A DNA stretch of 35,973 nucleotides. Source: Opitutia bacterium. Lineage in GTDB: Bacteria; Verrucomicrobiota; Verrucomicrobiia; Opitutales; UBA953. The stretch is from the NCBI GenBank assembly GCA_947377865.1, contig CANCHK010000019.1, positions 1-35,973 of the forward strand. The letters run 5' to 3'. Under the pieces are notes generated by a model, which saw nothing but the letters and a program-made list of their open reading frames with translations, ran no database searches and had not been told where the DNA came from. Within the stretch, counting starts at the first letter, position 1. Every line of letters begins with the position of its first letter. A program made the translations under genes and the position numbers. This document shows, piece after piece, positions 32,399 through 34,968 of the stretch.

Positions 32399-33169
32399 TT
32401 ACTTGACGGAACCGGCCGAGGCTTTGGAGGAAAGGGCGTTCTCCCAGACTTTCACGTCATCAAGGAGGACAGTCCCGGACGCACCGACCAGGAAGACGAT
32501 GCGTGACTTGGGGGCATCCAGCACCGTACCCTTAGCGGAGAGCGGAGGCAGGGCATCCAACTGCACGAGCACGTCGTTACCGTTCTGCTCAATGAAGACT
32601 TGGTGCCACTGGCCGTCGGCTACCTTCATGGGCTGCGCCGCCAGCTTCTCGACCCGATAGAATTTCGGATCAGCCAACTGCTCTTTGGTCAGAGCGGGCA
32701 GGACGCGGCCGCTCTTATCAGCTTCGCGCTTCTCCTTGCCTTGGGCGATATGGGATGCCGGTTCGCCGCGGTCCTGCTGGATGGCCAGTTGCGTCGGGGC
32801 AAGGGAGACGCGCAGAAGATGGGCAGCCCCGCCGAACTGGCTTTCGCCATCGAGCAAGAAGAGGAAGTATCCCGGCTTCGCATACTTGAATCGGAAACTG
32901 ATGCTGAAGTTGCGGCCCGTGAGCGGTACGCCGATCGCCGGACCGTGATGATCATCCGGCGAGCAGACGCCCTGCAGGGCACCGTCGACGATACTGAAGG
33001 CGCCAGCGCGACCGCCGGGCTCCCAGGGCTTGACAATCGCGGTACCAGAAAAGCTTTCGTCCAGCAGGACCTTACCCGAATCGGTGAGGCGGGGATGGAG
33101 CGCCTCAGCCGCCTGCGTCAAGCCCCCGAGAAGGCAGCAGGCAATGAACGCTAGCGGAGAGAGCTTCAT
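32399..33169 (-). CDS. Secreted LamG/DUF1080-like protein
   Basis: A 256-residue protein with a signal peptide (MKLSPLAFIACCLLGGLTQAAEA). The mature part has jelly-roll features: LLDESFSGTAI near residue 45, ISFRFKYAKPGYFLFLLDGE, WHQVFIEQNGNDVLVQLD and TVLLDDVKVWEN. These are the strands usual in concanavalin-like LamG or 3-keto-disaccharide hydrolase (DUF1080) folds of PVC bacteria, which bind or cut glycans. It starts 14 nt after the cimA stop; GGAGG lies 9 nt before its ATG, one of the rare Shine-Dalgarno sites. An earlier in-frame start would overlap cimA and give an Arg-rich, unlikely head. Confidence 0.72.
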   Translation of the reverse strand: MKLSPLAFIACCLLGGLTQAAEALHPRLTDSGKVLLDESFSGTAIVKPWEPGGRAGAFSIVDGALQGVCSPDDHHGPAIGVPLTGRNFSISFRFKYAKPGYFLFLLDGESQFGGAAHLLRVSLAPTQLAIQQDRGEPASHIAQGKEKREADKSGRVLPALTKEQLADPKFYRVEKLAAQPMKVADGQWHQVFIEQNGNDVLVQLDALPPLSAKGTVLDAPKSRIVFLVGASGTVLLDDVKVWENALSSKASAGSVK

Positions 33170-33183
33170 AGAATTGGGCCTCC

Positions 33184-34743
33184 TCAGGACAGCGCGTGGG
33201 CGTAGCCGTCGACAATCGCCTGCAGGGAGGCTTCGACGAGGTTTTCGCTGACGCCGACCGTACCCCATGAGCCCTTGCCGTCGGAAGAACGGATAACCAC
33301 GCGGGTCTTGGCCGCGGTGCCGTCAGTACCGCCGAGGATGCGGACCTTGTAATCCACGAGGCTGACCTTCGCCAGCTTCGGGAAAGACTTCACCAAGGCG
33401 GAACGCAGGGCCTGATCGAGAGCGTGGACCGGTCCATCGCCTTCGGCGACGGTGAGGGTCTCCTTGCCGCCGATACTGAGGCGCACCACGGCTTCGCAAT
33501 AGGCCGAACCCTTGGCGCCGCGCGCGGTGACATGGTAGGAAGCGACCTCGAACGGCGCGGCCTTGCTCTTGCCGATATGACGACGGAGCAGCAGCGCAAG
33601 CGAGGCTTCGGCGTCTTCGAAACTCCAACCACCGTGCTCAAGCTTCTTAAGTTCGTCGAGCGCGGTGGCCGTGGCGGGATTATCGCGGTCGAGGTCGATG
33701 CCGAGGGACTTCGCCTTGAGGACGATGTTGCTGCGGCCGGACTGGTCGCTGACGAGGACGGTGCGCTCGTTGCCGACGACGGTAGGATCGATGTGCTCGT
33801 AGGCCGCAGAGAACTTACGGACGGCGTCCACGTGGGTGCCACCCTTGTGGGCGAAGGCCGCGGTACCGACCCACGGGCGACGCGGATCGGGGGCGAGGTT
33901 GGCGACGCCGTCGACGAAACGGGAAAGGCCGGCGAGGCCCTTGAGCGAAGTCGAGGAAACGCACTTCCAGCCGAACTTAAGCTGGGCGCAAGGGATGACC
34001 GCGGTGAGGTCGCAGTTGCCGGTGCGCTCACCGATGCCGTTGACGGTGCCCTGGACATGGGAGGCGCCGGCTTCAAGCGAGGCGAGGGCGTTGGCGAGGC
34101 CGAGGCCGGCATCGTCATGCGTATGGATGCCGACAGGGGTCTTCTTGAGCGCGGCGAGGGCAGCACGGGTGGCCGCGGCGACTTCGGCCGGCAGGGAGCC
34201 GCCATTGGTGTCGCAAAGGACGATGCGGTCGGCGCCGCCTTCGACGGCGGCGAGCATGGAAGCGATGGCGTAGGCCGGGTCTTCCTTCCAGCCGTCGATC
34301 GCATGTTCGCAATCGTAGACGACTTCGCGGCGATGGGATTTCAGGAAAGCGACCGTGTCGCGGATCATCTCCAGATTCTCTTCGGGCGAACAGCGGAGCA
34401 CCTCGCGGACATGGAGGGCGGAGGTCTTGCCGTAGATTGTGACGACCGGGGTATCGACCTCAAGGAGGCCGCGCACCTGGGCATCTTCAGAGGCGCGCAC
34501 GCCCTTGCGGCGGGTCGACCCGAAGGCCGCCAGTTTGGCATGCTTGAACTTGATCTTCTTGGCGCGGGCGAAGAACTCGACGTCGCGGGGATTGGAGCCC
34601 GGCCAGCCGCCTTCGATGTAGGTCATGCCGAAGCGTTCGAGCTCGGCGGCGATGCGCAGCTTGTCATCGACGGAGAAATGAATGCCCTGCCCTTGCGAGC
34701 CGTCGCGGAGGGTGGTATCATAGATTTCGATGGAGCGTGCCAT
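33184..34743 (-). CDS. cimA: (R)-citramalate synthase
   Basis: A 519-residue enzyme. The HMGL-like TIM barrel opens with IEIYDTTLRDGSQGQGI (metal Asp9), then TYIEGGWPGSNPRD and TPVGIHTHDDAGL, whose histidines bind the divalent metal. GTVNGIGERTGNCDL and the HKGGTHVDAV block separate citramalate synthase from the leucine enzyme LeuA. The C-terminal LeuA-dimer-like regulatory domain (about 400-515) likely binds isoleucine. It condenses pyruvate and acetyl-CoA to citramalate, the first step of threonine-independent isoleucine synthesis. Upstream lies a leader peptide rich in isoleucine codons with competing hairpins. No Shine-Dalgarno is present. Confidence 0.93.
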   Translation of the reverse strand: MARSIEIYDTTLRDGSQGQGIHFSVDDKLRIAAELERFGMTYIEGGWPGSNPRDVEFFARAKKIKFKHAKLAAFGSTRRKGVRASEDAQVRGLLEVDTPVVTIYGKTSALHVREVLRCSPEENLEMIRDTVAFLKSHRREVVYDCEHAIDGWKEDPAYAIASMLAAVEGGADRIVLCDTNGGSLPAEVAAATRAALAALKKTPVGIHTHDDAGLGLANALASLEAGASHVQGTVNGIGERTGNCDLTAVIPCAQLKFGWKCVSSTSLKGLAGLSRFVDGVANLAPDPRRPWVGTAAFAHKGGTHVDAVRKFSAAYEHIDPTVVGNERTVLVSDQSGRSNIVLKAKSLGIDLDRDNPATATALDELKKLEHGGWSFEDAEASLALLLRRHIGKSKAAPFEVASYHVTARGAKGSAYCEAVVRLSIGGKETLTVAEGDGPVHALDQALRSALVKSFPKLAKVSLVDYKVRILGGTDGTAAKTRVVIRSSDGKGSWGTVGVSENLVEASLQAIVDGYAHALS

Positions 34744-34780
34744 GGTGGTGTGGGTGGGAAAGAGGTGTAAAGGGAGGGGG
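34744..34780 (-). promoter_or_regulatory. 37-nt G-free, C-rich stretch before cimA
   Basis: On the minus strand the 37 nt ahead of the cimA ATG contain no G at all (they begin CCCCCTCCCTTTACACC and end ACACCACC). It is unstructured by composition. It could be a Rho utilisation site in the attenuator or a C-rich ribosome-landing leader of the kind seen at other genes here. Confidence 0.5.
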
Positions 34781-34846
34781 CCGTTCCGGGCGCCGCGGAA
34801 CGGGGAGTCGCCCGTCGGGCGTTCCGTTCAGCGGGCTTAGAGCCCG
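34781..34846 (-). promoter_or_regulatory. Competing hairpins of the putative cimA attenuator
   Basis: In transcript order: hairpin 1 (34832-34846, CGGGCT-CTA-AGCCCG) holds the leader stop codon. CGGAACG (34820-34826) can pair with CGTTCCG (34796-34802). The second of these can instead join an 8-bp stem with CGGAACGG (34781-34788), loop 34789-34795. A further small hairpin is at 34809-34821. The 2:3 versus 3:4 choice is the logic of amino-acid attenuators. The 3:4 stem is followed by CCCCCTCCCTTT, not a clean T-run. Confidence 0.65.
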
Positions 34847-34926
34847 ATGATGGTAATAATCGCCGGAATGATGGCACGACCGGCCGCGGAGCGGAGGGAG
34901 GTCGAAGACTGGGCCAGGGATTCCAT
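34837..34926 (-). CDS. Isoleucine-rich leader peptide of cimA (29 aa)
   Basis: A 29-codon ORF, ATG at 34926 to TAA at 34837-34839, ends in RAIIPAIITIIGL. Six of nine consecutive codons (34846-34872) are isoleucine, using both ATC and ATT. It lies 93 nt upstream of cimA on the same strand, and its stop codon is inside hairpin 1. Size, Ile run near the end and the following competing hairpins match leader peptides of amino-acid attenuators such as ilvL and ilvB leaders. An in-frame extension upstream to 35019 is possible, but the short form fits a candidate promoter at 34963-34968 (TTGACT). Not annotated by usual gene finders because of its length. Confidence 0.7.
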   Translation of the reverse strand: MESLAQSSTSLRSAAGRAIIPAIITIIGL

Positions 34927-34962
34927 GACGAGGACCCCGACTTCAAGGGCGGAGGCTTGGAG

Positions 34963-34968
34963 AGTCAA
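34963..34968 (-). promoter_or_regulatory. Candidate -35 box (TTGACT) for the cimA leader
   Basis: TTGACT on the minus strand, 36 nt before the leader ATG. The 17-nt-spaced hexamer is TGAAGT (34940-34945), a weak -10, giving a start a few bases before the leader ORF. Low certainty. Confidence 0.35.

Follow-up and report, generated by a model that had tools for sequence, protein, structure and literature searches.

The window, by which we mean the whole stretch of DNA that was analysed (35,973 nucleotides from an Opitutia bacterium whose genome is 76% complete), carries on its minus strand a gene that the preliminary description had named cimA, for citramalate synthase, an assignment borne out by an equivalog model (Table 1). 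Upstream of this gene, on the same strand, lies a leader open reading frame (ORF) of 29 codons, with its ATG at 34926-34924 and its TAA at 34839-34837, which ends in RAIIPAIITIIGL and contains the run ATC ATT CCG GCG ATT ATT ACC ATC ATC (34872-34846). The segments CGGGCTCTAAGCCCG (34846-34832), CGGAACG (34826-34820) and CCGTTCCG (34803-34796) follow on the same strand. All coordinates first given for the 29-codon ORF, its six isoleucine codons in nine, the hairpin around the stop codon and the competing segments proved right.

Further upstream, the sequence TTTGACTC, which contains a predicted -35 box, is identical in 21 of 21 aligned loci of the genus to which the window belongs. In most of these 21 loci, judged by eye, the motif T..AGT stands 17 nt after TTGACT and 10-13 nt before the leader ATG. 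The transcript would probably start about 5-8 nt before this ATG, and the leader ORF would therefore be almost leaderless if the predicted promoter is real. As regards the other flank, the start listed for the window ORF at 32399-33268 (minus strand) overlaps cimA; a start at 33169, which gives a signal-peptide-like N-terminus, looks more likely.

Table 1. Features of the cimA locus in the window (paired fractions refer to genus loci)
Feature	Position	Strand	Remarks
Predicted -35 box TTGACT (within TTTGACTC)	34963..34968	-	putative promoter element
Predicted -10 box TGAAGT	34940..34945	-	putative; 17-nt spacer; T..AGT here in most of 21 loci, by eye
Leader ORF MESLAQSSTSLRSAAGRAIIPAIITIIGL	34837..34926	-	stop TAA included; in 38/38 genus loci with sequence
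Ile control codons, 6 in 9	34846..34872	-	last two (34851-34846) abut region 1
1:2 hairpin CGGGC-TCTAA-GCCCG	34832..34846	-	contains the stop codon; 99.2% of cells paired, 24 loci
Region 2, CCGCtGAACGG	34824..34834	-	2:3 helix, 98.8% of cells paired
Small hairpin inside 2:3 (CGCC...GGCG)	34809..34821	-	2 pairs changed on both sides
Region 3, CCGTTCcGCGG	34793..34803	-	near invariant in 24 loci
Region 4, CGGAACGG	34781..34788	-	3:4 hairpin spans 34781-34803; no U-tract after it; 93.8% of cells paired
C/T-rich, G-poor stretch	34744..34780	-	reaches the cimA ATG
cimA, citramalate synthase	33184..34743	-	TIGR00977 equivalog, 645.7 bits, cut-off 450

Conservation of the leader ORF and its isoleucine codons

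The leader ORF was compared in a sample made up of 42 of 80 loci and the window, in which four loci belong to the sister genus g5 and 39 do not. An ATG-started leader ORF is present in each of the 38 same-genus loci whose upstream sequence reaches far enough, the window included; this count leaves out L040, whose contig begins within the leader, and L051, L053 and L072, whose contigs begin within cimA. The leaders are 29 (23 loci) or 27 codons long (15 loci), and they end in TAA (23), TGA (12) or TAG (3), with the stop codon sitting in the hairpin. Across the 33 distinct leaders, 45% of the final 11 codons are for isoleucine, 10% for leucine and 1% for valine; the two other frames give 0 and 0.3% isoleucine. 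The search for an Ile-rich short ORF in related genomes, which had been proposed as a check, therefore came out as predicted. Four Ile codons were compared in 24 loci: conservation reaches at least 90% in their first and second letters but stays below that in their third. Both codons are used about equally in the distinct leaders (ATT 87, ATC 79); the counts in the cimA gene of the window are ATC 20 and ATT 2.

Outside the Ile run, the leader peptide drifts across the genus. Such drift is expected if the control codons alone matter, and it is no independent proof of coding. Over the whole leader there is no excess of third-position substitutions (variable columns 18/15/16 and 17/19/23). A block with the sequence GGTCGTGCC (window positions 34873-34881, minus strand; codons Gly-Arg-Ala) shows more conservation than its codons alone would call for, and a pairing with region 4 is conceivable. 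In this long-range pairing, suggested by RNAalifold, 94.6% of the cells are paired, but 261 of 500 shuffles attain its covariation score.

The missing third-position excess and the strongly conserved GGTCGTGCC block are what one would expect if the short ORF had arisen by chance and were left untranslated, what is conserved being an RNA element to which a protein or ligand binds. We consider this explanation very improbable, given that an in-frame Ile run occurs in two distant groups (see below) whose peptides are otherwise unlike, that three different stop codons are used, that the wobble letters of the Ile codons vary, and that the leaders differ in length by whole codons. It is also conceivable that the leader ORF, lying as it does upstream of cimA, boosts translation of the gene by re-initiation, which the accessible part of PMC4833913 proposes for leaders 10-11 nt before a gene. 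In the genus loci, 78-108 nt separate the leader stop from the start of cimA, and both the Ile run and the pairings would be left unexplained, which makes re-initiation extremely improbable.

Mutually exclusive pairings downstream of the leader ORF

The preliminary description proposed that two segments compete for the same partner. The segments lie where it placed them and the competition between 2:3 and 3:4 is kept in the genus, but more distant members of the genus do not retain the pairing register that it gave for 2:3, CGGAACG (34826-34820) with CGTTCCG. The 2:3 helix that is kept across the genus joins 34834-34824 with 34803-34793 (CCGC-U-GAACGG with CCGUUC-C-GCGG); it consists of ten pairs and one U-C mismatch and closes over the small hairpin at 34821-34809. 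In 24 loci, 97.3% of the cells of this helix and its inner hairpin are paired, as against 24-52% when the register is slid, and their joint covariation score is reached by none of 500 shuffles, a control that ignores relatedness. The double changes behind this score are located in the inner hairpin only. The compensatory changes sought in both pairings were thus found at two pairs inside 2:3, but neither in the ten-pair helix, where six of the ten pairs never vary, nor in 3:4. The 1:2 and 3:4 hairpins show one-sided changes only in the 24 loci, with covariation no better than that of shuffles.

Folding of the segments agrees with a switch between these pairings. With region 1 masked, 2:3 forms in 32 of 39 loci (the exceptions being L043, L055 and L064-L068), and with region 2 masked as well, 3:4 forms in 37 of 39 (not in L058 and L061). 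When shorter segments are folded unmasked, the structures are nearly balanced: 1:2 appears in 12 of 39 loci, and 1:2 together with 3:4 in only five. Both hairpins form in a longer unmasked segment of the window.

The order of leader peptide, stop-codon hairpin, 2:3 and 3:4 is conserved in the genus. The region shows three of the features by which an attenuator is recognised: mutually exclusive 2:3 and 3:4 helices that share one segment (seen in the pairing of 24 loci and in the masked folds), a short ORF in which codons for the amino acid of the pathway are clustered (38 of 38 genus loci), and stop and control codons so placed that the position of the ribosome would pick the pairing, the last Ile codons lying directly against region 1. 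No Rfam model matches the leader region at gathering scores; with the threshold relaxed to an E value of 10, three archaeal snoRNA models appear and nothing else, far below their cut-offs and on the other strand.

Distribution of the leader in the genus and its relatives

Twenty genus loci were used to build a covariance model of the core (R1). It finds a match in 45 of 55 genomes of the genus and in none of 24 other genomes of the family, 11 of which have a cimA match. No genus genome contains a second strong match; there are two weak extras, with E values of 0.016 and 0.058. Among the 37 genus genomes covered by the cimA search, 34 match R1. The three that do not are G056, which shows no cimA, and G038 and G055, which do not show the 5' end of the gene. 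A pattern search gave 21 places in 17 of 387 genomes and missed the genus members G001 and G006; the window's own match, the one read in context, is also the one recognised as a cimA leader.

In four loci of the sister genus g5 (L069, L070, L071 and L075), cimA is present without the leader. Since the CimA tree places g5 within the genus, it has probably lost the leader; the alternative would be two gains.

No Ile leader was seen by eye before ilvB in seven genus genomes (L115-L121, with masked bases in L120), nor before ilvC, with part of the ilvN upstream region, in six (L126-L131). The ilvB upstream regions of L115-L121 have a recurrent promoter-like sequence of their own, TTGCCC-N17-TTTCTAACC, recognised by eye; in most cases a short inverted repeat comes next, and nothing like a leader ORF was seen.

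A similar leader in a distant verrucomicrobial order

Six of 33 outgroup cimA upstream regions (L089, L090, L092, L099, L107 and L110) carry the arrangement CGC-U-GAACG ... CCCCGUUC-C-GCG ... CGGAACGGGG-UUUU or close variants of it. Taken alone, these six seeds show no convincing covariation, the score of 2:3 being reached by 84 of 500 shuffles and that of 3:4 by 500 of 500. A second covariance model (R2), built from the six seeds without any genus locus, matches 38 of 293 genomes in the order of G459, the seeds included. The core is held by 37 of them; the remaining match, L318 (G650), covers the terminator part only and is left outside the 37. Neighbours in the CimA tree suggest that this order is Limisphaerales. 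The gene downstream is cimA in 36 of the 37 loci, and the last, L280, ends about 40 nt past the match.

With the reading frame set by the core's own TGA, isoleucine occupies 125 of 555 residues (22.5%) in the last 15 codons of these leaders, compared with 2.2 and 2.0% in the other frames; leucine stands at 3.2% and valine at 2.7%. At least one Ile codon is present in 36 of 37 leaders and at least three in 26, with a peak 7-9 codons before the stop, it being understood that the 37 rows include L297, read at the wrong core (the row without Ile), and the near copies L314-L316. The inner five pairs of 2:3 hold in 37 of 37 loci, and the outer pair is C-G in 20, U-A in eight, A-U in two and unpaired in seven; these are raw counts without a shuffle control, in which L270, with one inserted base, was counted out of register. 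A 2:3 helix with at least six of eight pairs precedes region 4 in 27 of 35 distinct segments, the eight misses comprising six truncated segments (L268, L270, L278, L279, L281 and L287) and two with five pairs. The 3:4 hairpin has a median energy of -22 kcal/mol, and at least five U stand in the 8 nt after it in 30 of 37 loci. Taken together, the Ile-rich leader, the pairings and the U-rich tail mean that the phylum has a cimA leader which, in its sequence, carries the marks of a classical attenuator.

A common origin of the genus leaders and those of the distant order is plausible from their sequences. The best nine hits of R2 in 195 kb are genus leaders, with E values from 6e-5 to 0.01, and all nine are 27-codon leaders. 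On 20 genus loci, R2 matches nine over its full length, the window (E 0.19) and eight more over 3:4 only, and L067 and L068 not at all. In the reverse direction, R1 applied to the 33 outgroup loci places the leader of L110 first (E 0.012) and that of L090 second (E 0.28), and misses the other four seeds. Two codons past the stop, 31 of 39 genus loci have a TGA in the same frame (TAA GCC CGC TGA), at the stop position of the distant group, which suggests that the stop has moved. The likeness of regions 2 and 4 between the groups is forced once region 3 is alike. In the CimA tree, the genus lies beside the leader-bearing group and is not nested in it.

Several further candidate types were picked out by eye among 100 cimA upstream stretches. 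L174 (G346, Opitutales family f3) has, at about -250 to -80 relative to cimA, an Ile-rich ORF (...SLPIIAAIITIARSPGQVDAA) with a U-tract hairpin behind it; this is possibly an independent Ile attenuator, its sequence being unlike that of the window. Upstream of cimA in L177, L178 and L179 (family f5) are short ORFs, MQFIVTTLAIARIR and MQTFQPVIAIERIR, then TAG and a CCCGGG...CCGGGCC hairpin, which may represent another type of attenuator. L186 (f14) and L257 (f77) have Ile-containing short ORFs upstream of cimA, followed by hairpins with U-rich tails. A phylum-wide survey of 137 cimA upstream stretches (100 places hand-chosen from at least about 150, plus 37 loci, L082 being left out) gave under a strict rule two Ile cases against a mean of 0.05 in shuffles. 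Since alanine, glycine and arginine reach three each in the same survey, we do not claim from it that there are many independent Ile leaders.

A proposed mechanism and its off state

Ribosome-mediated attenuation is the best reading of this region, and we assign a probability of roughly 0.8 to cimA being under the control of such an attenuator, with charged isoleucine tRNA as the signal. Comparison establishes the ORF, its Ile run, the pairing segments and their succession, as well as a cimA leader of similar layout in a second order; judged from these, the element would work like a classical attenuator, with the ribosome as the likely sensor. Transcription would start 5-8 nt before the leader ATG. 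When isoleucine tRNA is plentiful, the ribosome would reach the stop codon and, going by usual ribosome footprints, cover the first part of region 2, so that regions 3 and 4 pair. When this tRNA is short, the ribosome would wait on the last Ile codons. As the last two of these abut region 1, the waiting ribosome would mask it and leave region 2 free; region 2 would then pair with region 3, block 3:4 and allow cimA to be expressed. This is the reading that had been given to this region at the outset. It gains from the conserved order of the elements, the TTGACT box upstream and the similar leader in the distant order, but the register of 2:3 had to be revised, and in this genus transcription would not end in the way known from textbook attenuators.

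In the genus, none of 20 distinct sequences has at least five T in the 8 nt after the 3:4 hairpin (mean 1.35, maximum 2). The hairpin itself has an energy of -9 to -15 kcal/mol, and in 12 of the 20 sequences the first TTT or CTT starts 8-10 nt past it. Terminator prediction found nothing either. A strong U-tract hairpin does exist elsewhere in the window, at least at 1431-1456, but scans of the whole window are no richer in terminators than shuffles (15 versus 14.8, and 17 versus 17.1), and it is therefore mentioned merely as an example. Since the U-tract was looked for in the genus and is absent, we do not file the window element as a classical attenuator with an intrinsic terminator. We infer that 3:4 lowers cimA expression by ending transcription; without a U-tract, such termination would either be weak or depend on a factor (Rho, NusA/NusG).

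Termination assisted by Rho or another factor is accordingly the main rival for the off step. The sensor and switch would be the same, and the off state would consist of Rho-dependent (or pause- or NusG-dependent) termination in the C-rich, G-poor stretch after 3:4. The absence of a U-tract from all 20 distinct genus sequences fits this proposal, as does the composition of the stretch 34780-34744, which is C/T-rich and almost free of G. There is also a precedent in the mycobacterial cys leader peptides, which have no obvious terminators and for which Rho was suggested (PMC1262725, in the part consulted). We nevertheless regard it as possible but rather unlikely. The tract is only about 37 nt long, and C/T-rich stretches are also found before ilvC and ilvB in the genus, so that the tract may belong merely to the translation start; moreover, the 3:4 hairpin of the distant order mostly has a U-rich tail.

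The lack of a U-tract would equally suit translational attenuation, with the 2:3/3:4 switch opening or closing the cimA start site. This is improbable in view of the computed openness of cimA from -20 to +15, which averages 0.74 with 3:4 and 0.72 with 2:3. Where the two states differ by more than 0.05, it is never the 2:3 state that is more open (0 of 21 loci), while the 3:4 state is so in two.

Relation to known leader peptides

The likeness to the classical ilv and leu attenuators of enterobacteria is extensive: control codons lie by region 1, the stop codon is in 1:2, 2:3 competes with 3:4, and a gene of the pathway follows. In known ilv leaders, codons for Ile, Val and Leu all occur, and a U-tract stands at the end. 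The window leader differs from them in using nearly Ile alone and in having cimA as its target, and the genus version differs in its lack of a U-tract. With regard to the short distance predicted between transcript start and leader ORF, leaderless polycysteine upstream ORFs (uORFs) of mycobacteria were reportedly described by Canestrari et al. in 2020.

According to the portions of the literature available to us, attenuation by ilvB leaders has been tested or proposed in several phyla (PMC13236596, PMC10272879, PMC1262725). The ilvB1NC attenuator of Mycobacterium tuberculosis also has a uORF with branched-chain codons, and a stalled ribosome favours its antiterminator, as examined by codon changes; it differs in its codons (LVVI), its gene (ilvB1) and the presence of a Rho-independent terminator (PMC13236596, in part). 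The ilvB-II, ilvB-OMG and Leptospira ilvB motifs likewise have uORFs with many branched-chain codons upstream of a gene of the branched-chain pathway, but all of them precede ilvB and use several branched-chain codons, with threonine in two; the portion of the paper available contains no cimA case (PMC10272879). The polycysteine uORFs of mycobacteria resemble the window leader in being short ORFs at or near the transcript start (a predicted one in the window), with codons for one amino acid and no obvious terminator (PMC9031893, PMC1262725, both in part). They differ in that the amino acid is cysteine and the targets are cys operons, and translational control has been reported for them (PMC9031893, in part). 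Other uORF motifs are treated in PMC8632094, whose accessible part does not mention Verrucomicrobia, and in 2010 leader peptides were stated not to have been shown outside Proteobacteria and Actinobacteria before the authors' own Firmicutes case (PMC2965389, in part). The preliminary description knew of no attenuator of this kind for cimA, and our search agrees with it: the open-access titles and abstracts that it listed mention neither a cimA leader attenuator nor any leader attenuator for Verrucomicrobiota, although the comparative study of Lopatovskaya et al. 2010 might contain one. By its mode of working, we place the window element with the leader-peptide attenuators.

In this pathway the citramalate synthase step is dedicated to isoleucine only, whereas the ilv enzymes also work for valine. 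Taking into account that no such leader was seen before ilvB (seven loci) or ilvNC (six loci), the isoleucine signal would act at the step that is specific to isoleucine. We tentatively propose, at somewhat less than even odds, that these leaders form an Ile-only class of cimA attenuators in Verrucomicrobiota, whose genus version has no U-tract, a nearly leaderless ORF and an off state of another kind, either factor-dependent termination or a programmed pause. If the genus version does regulate without a U-tract, it would be a natural case of what a leader switch needs past its hairpin.
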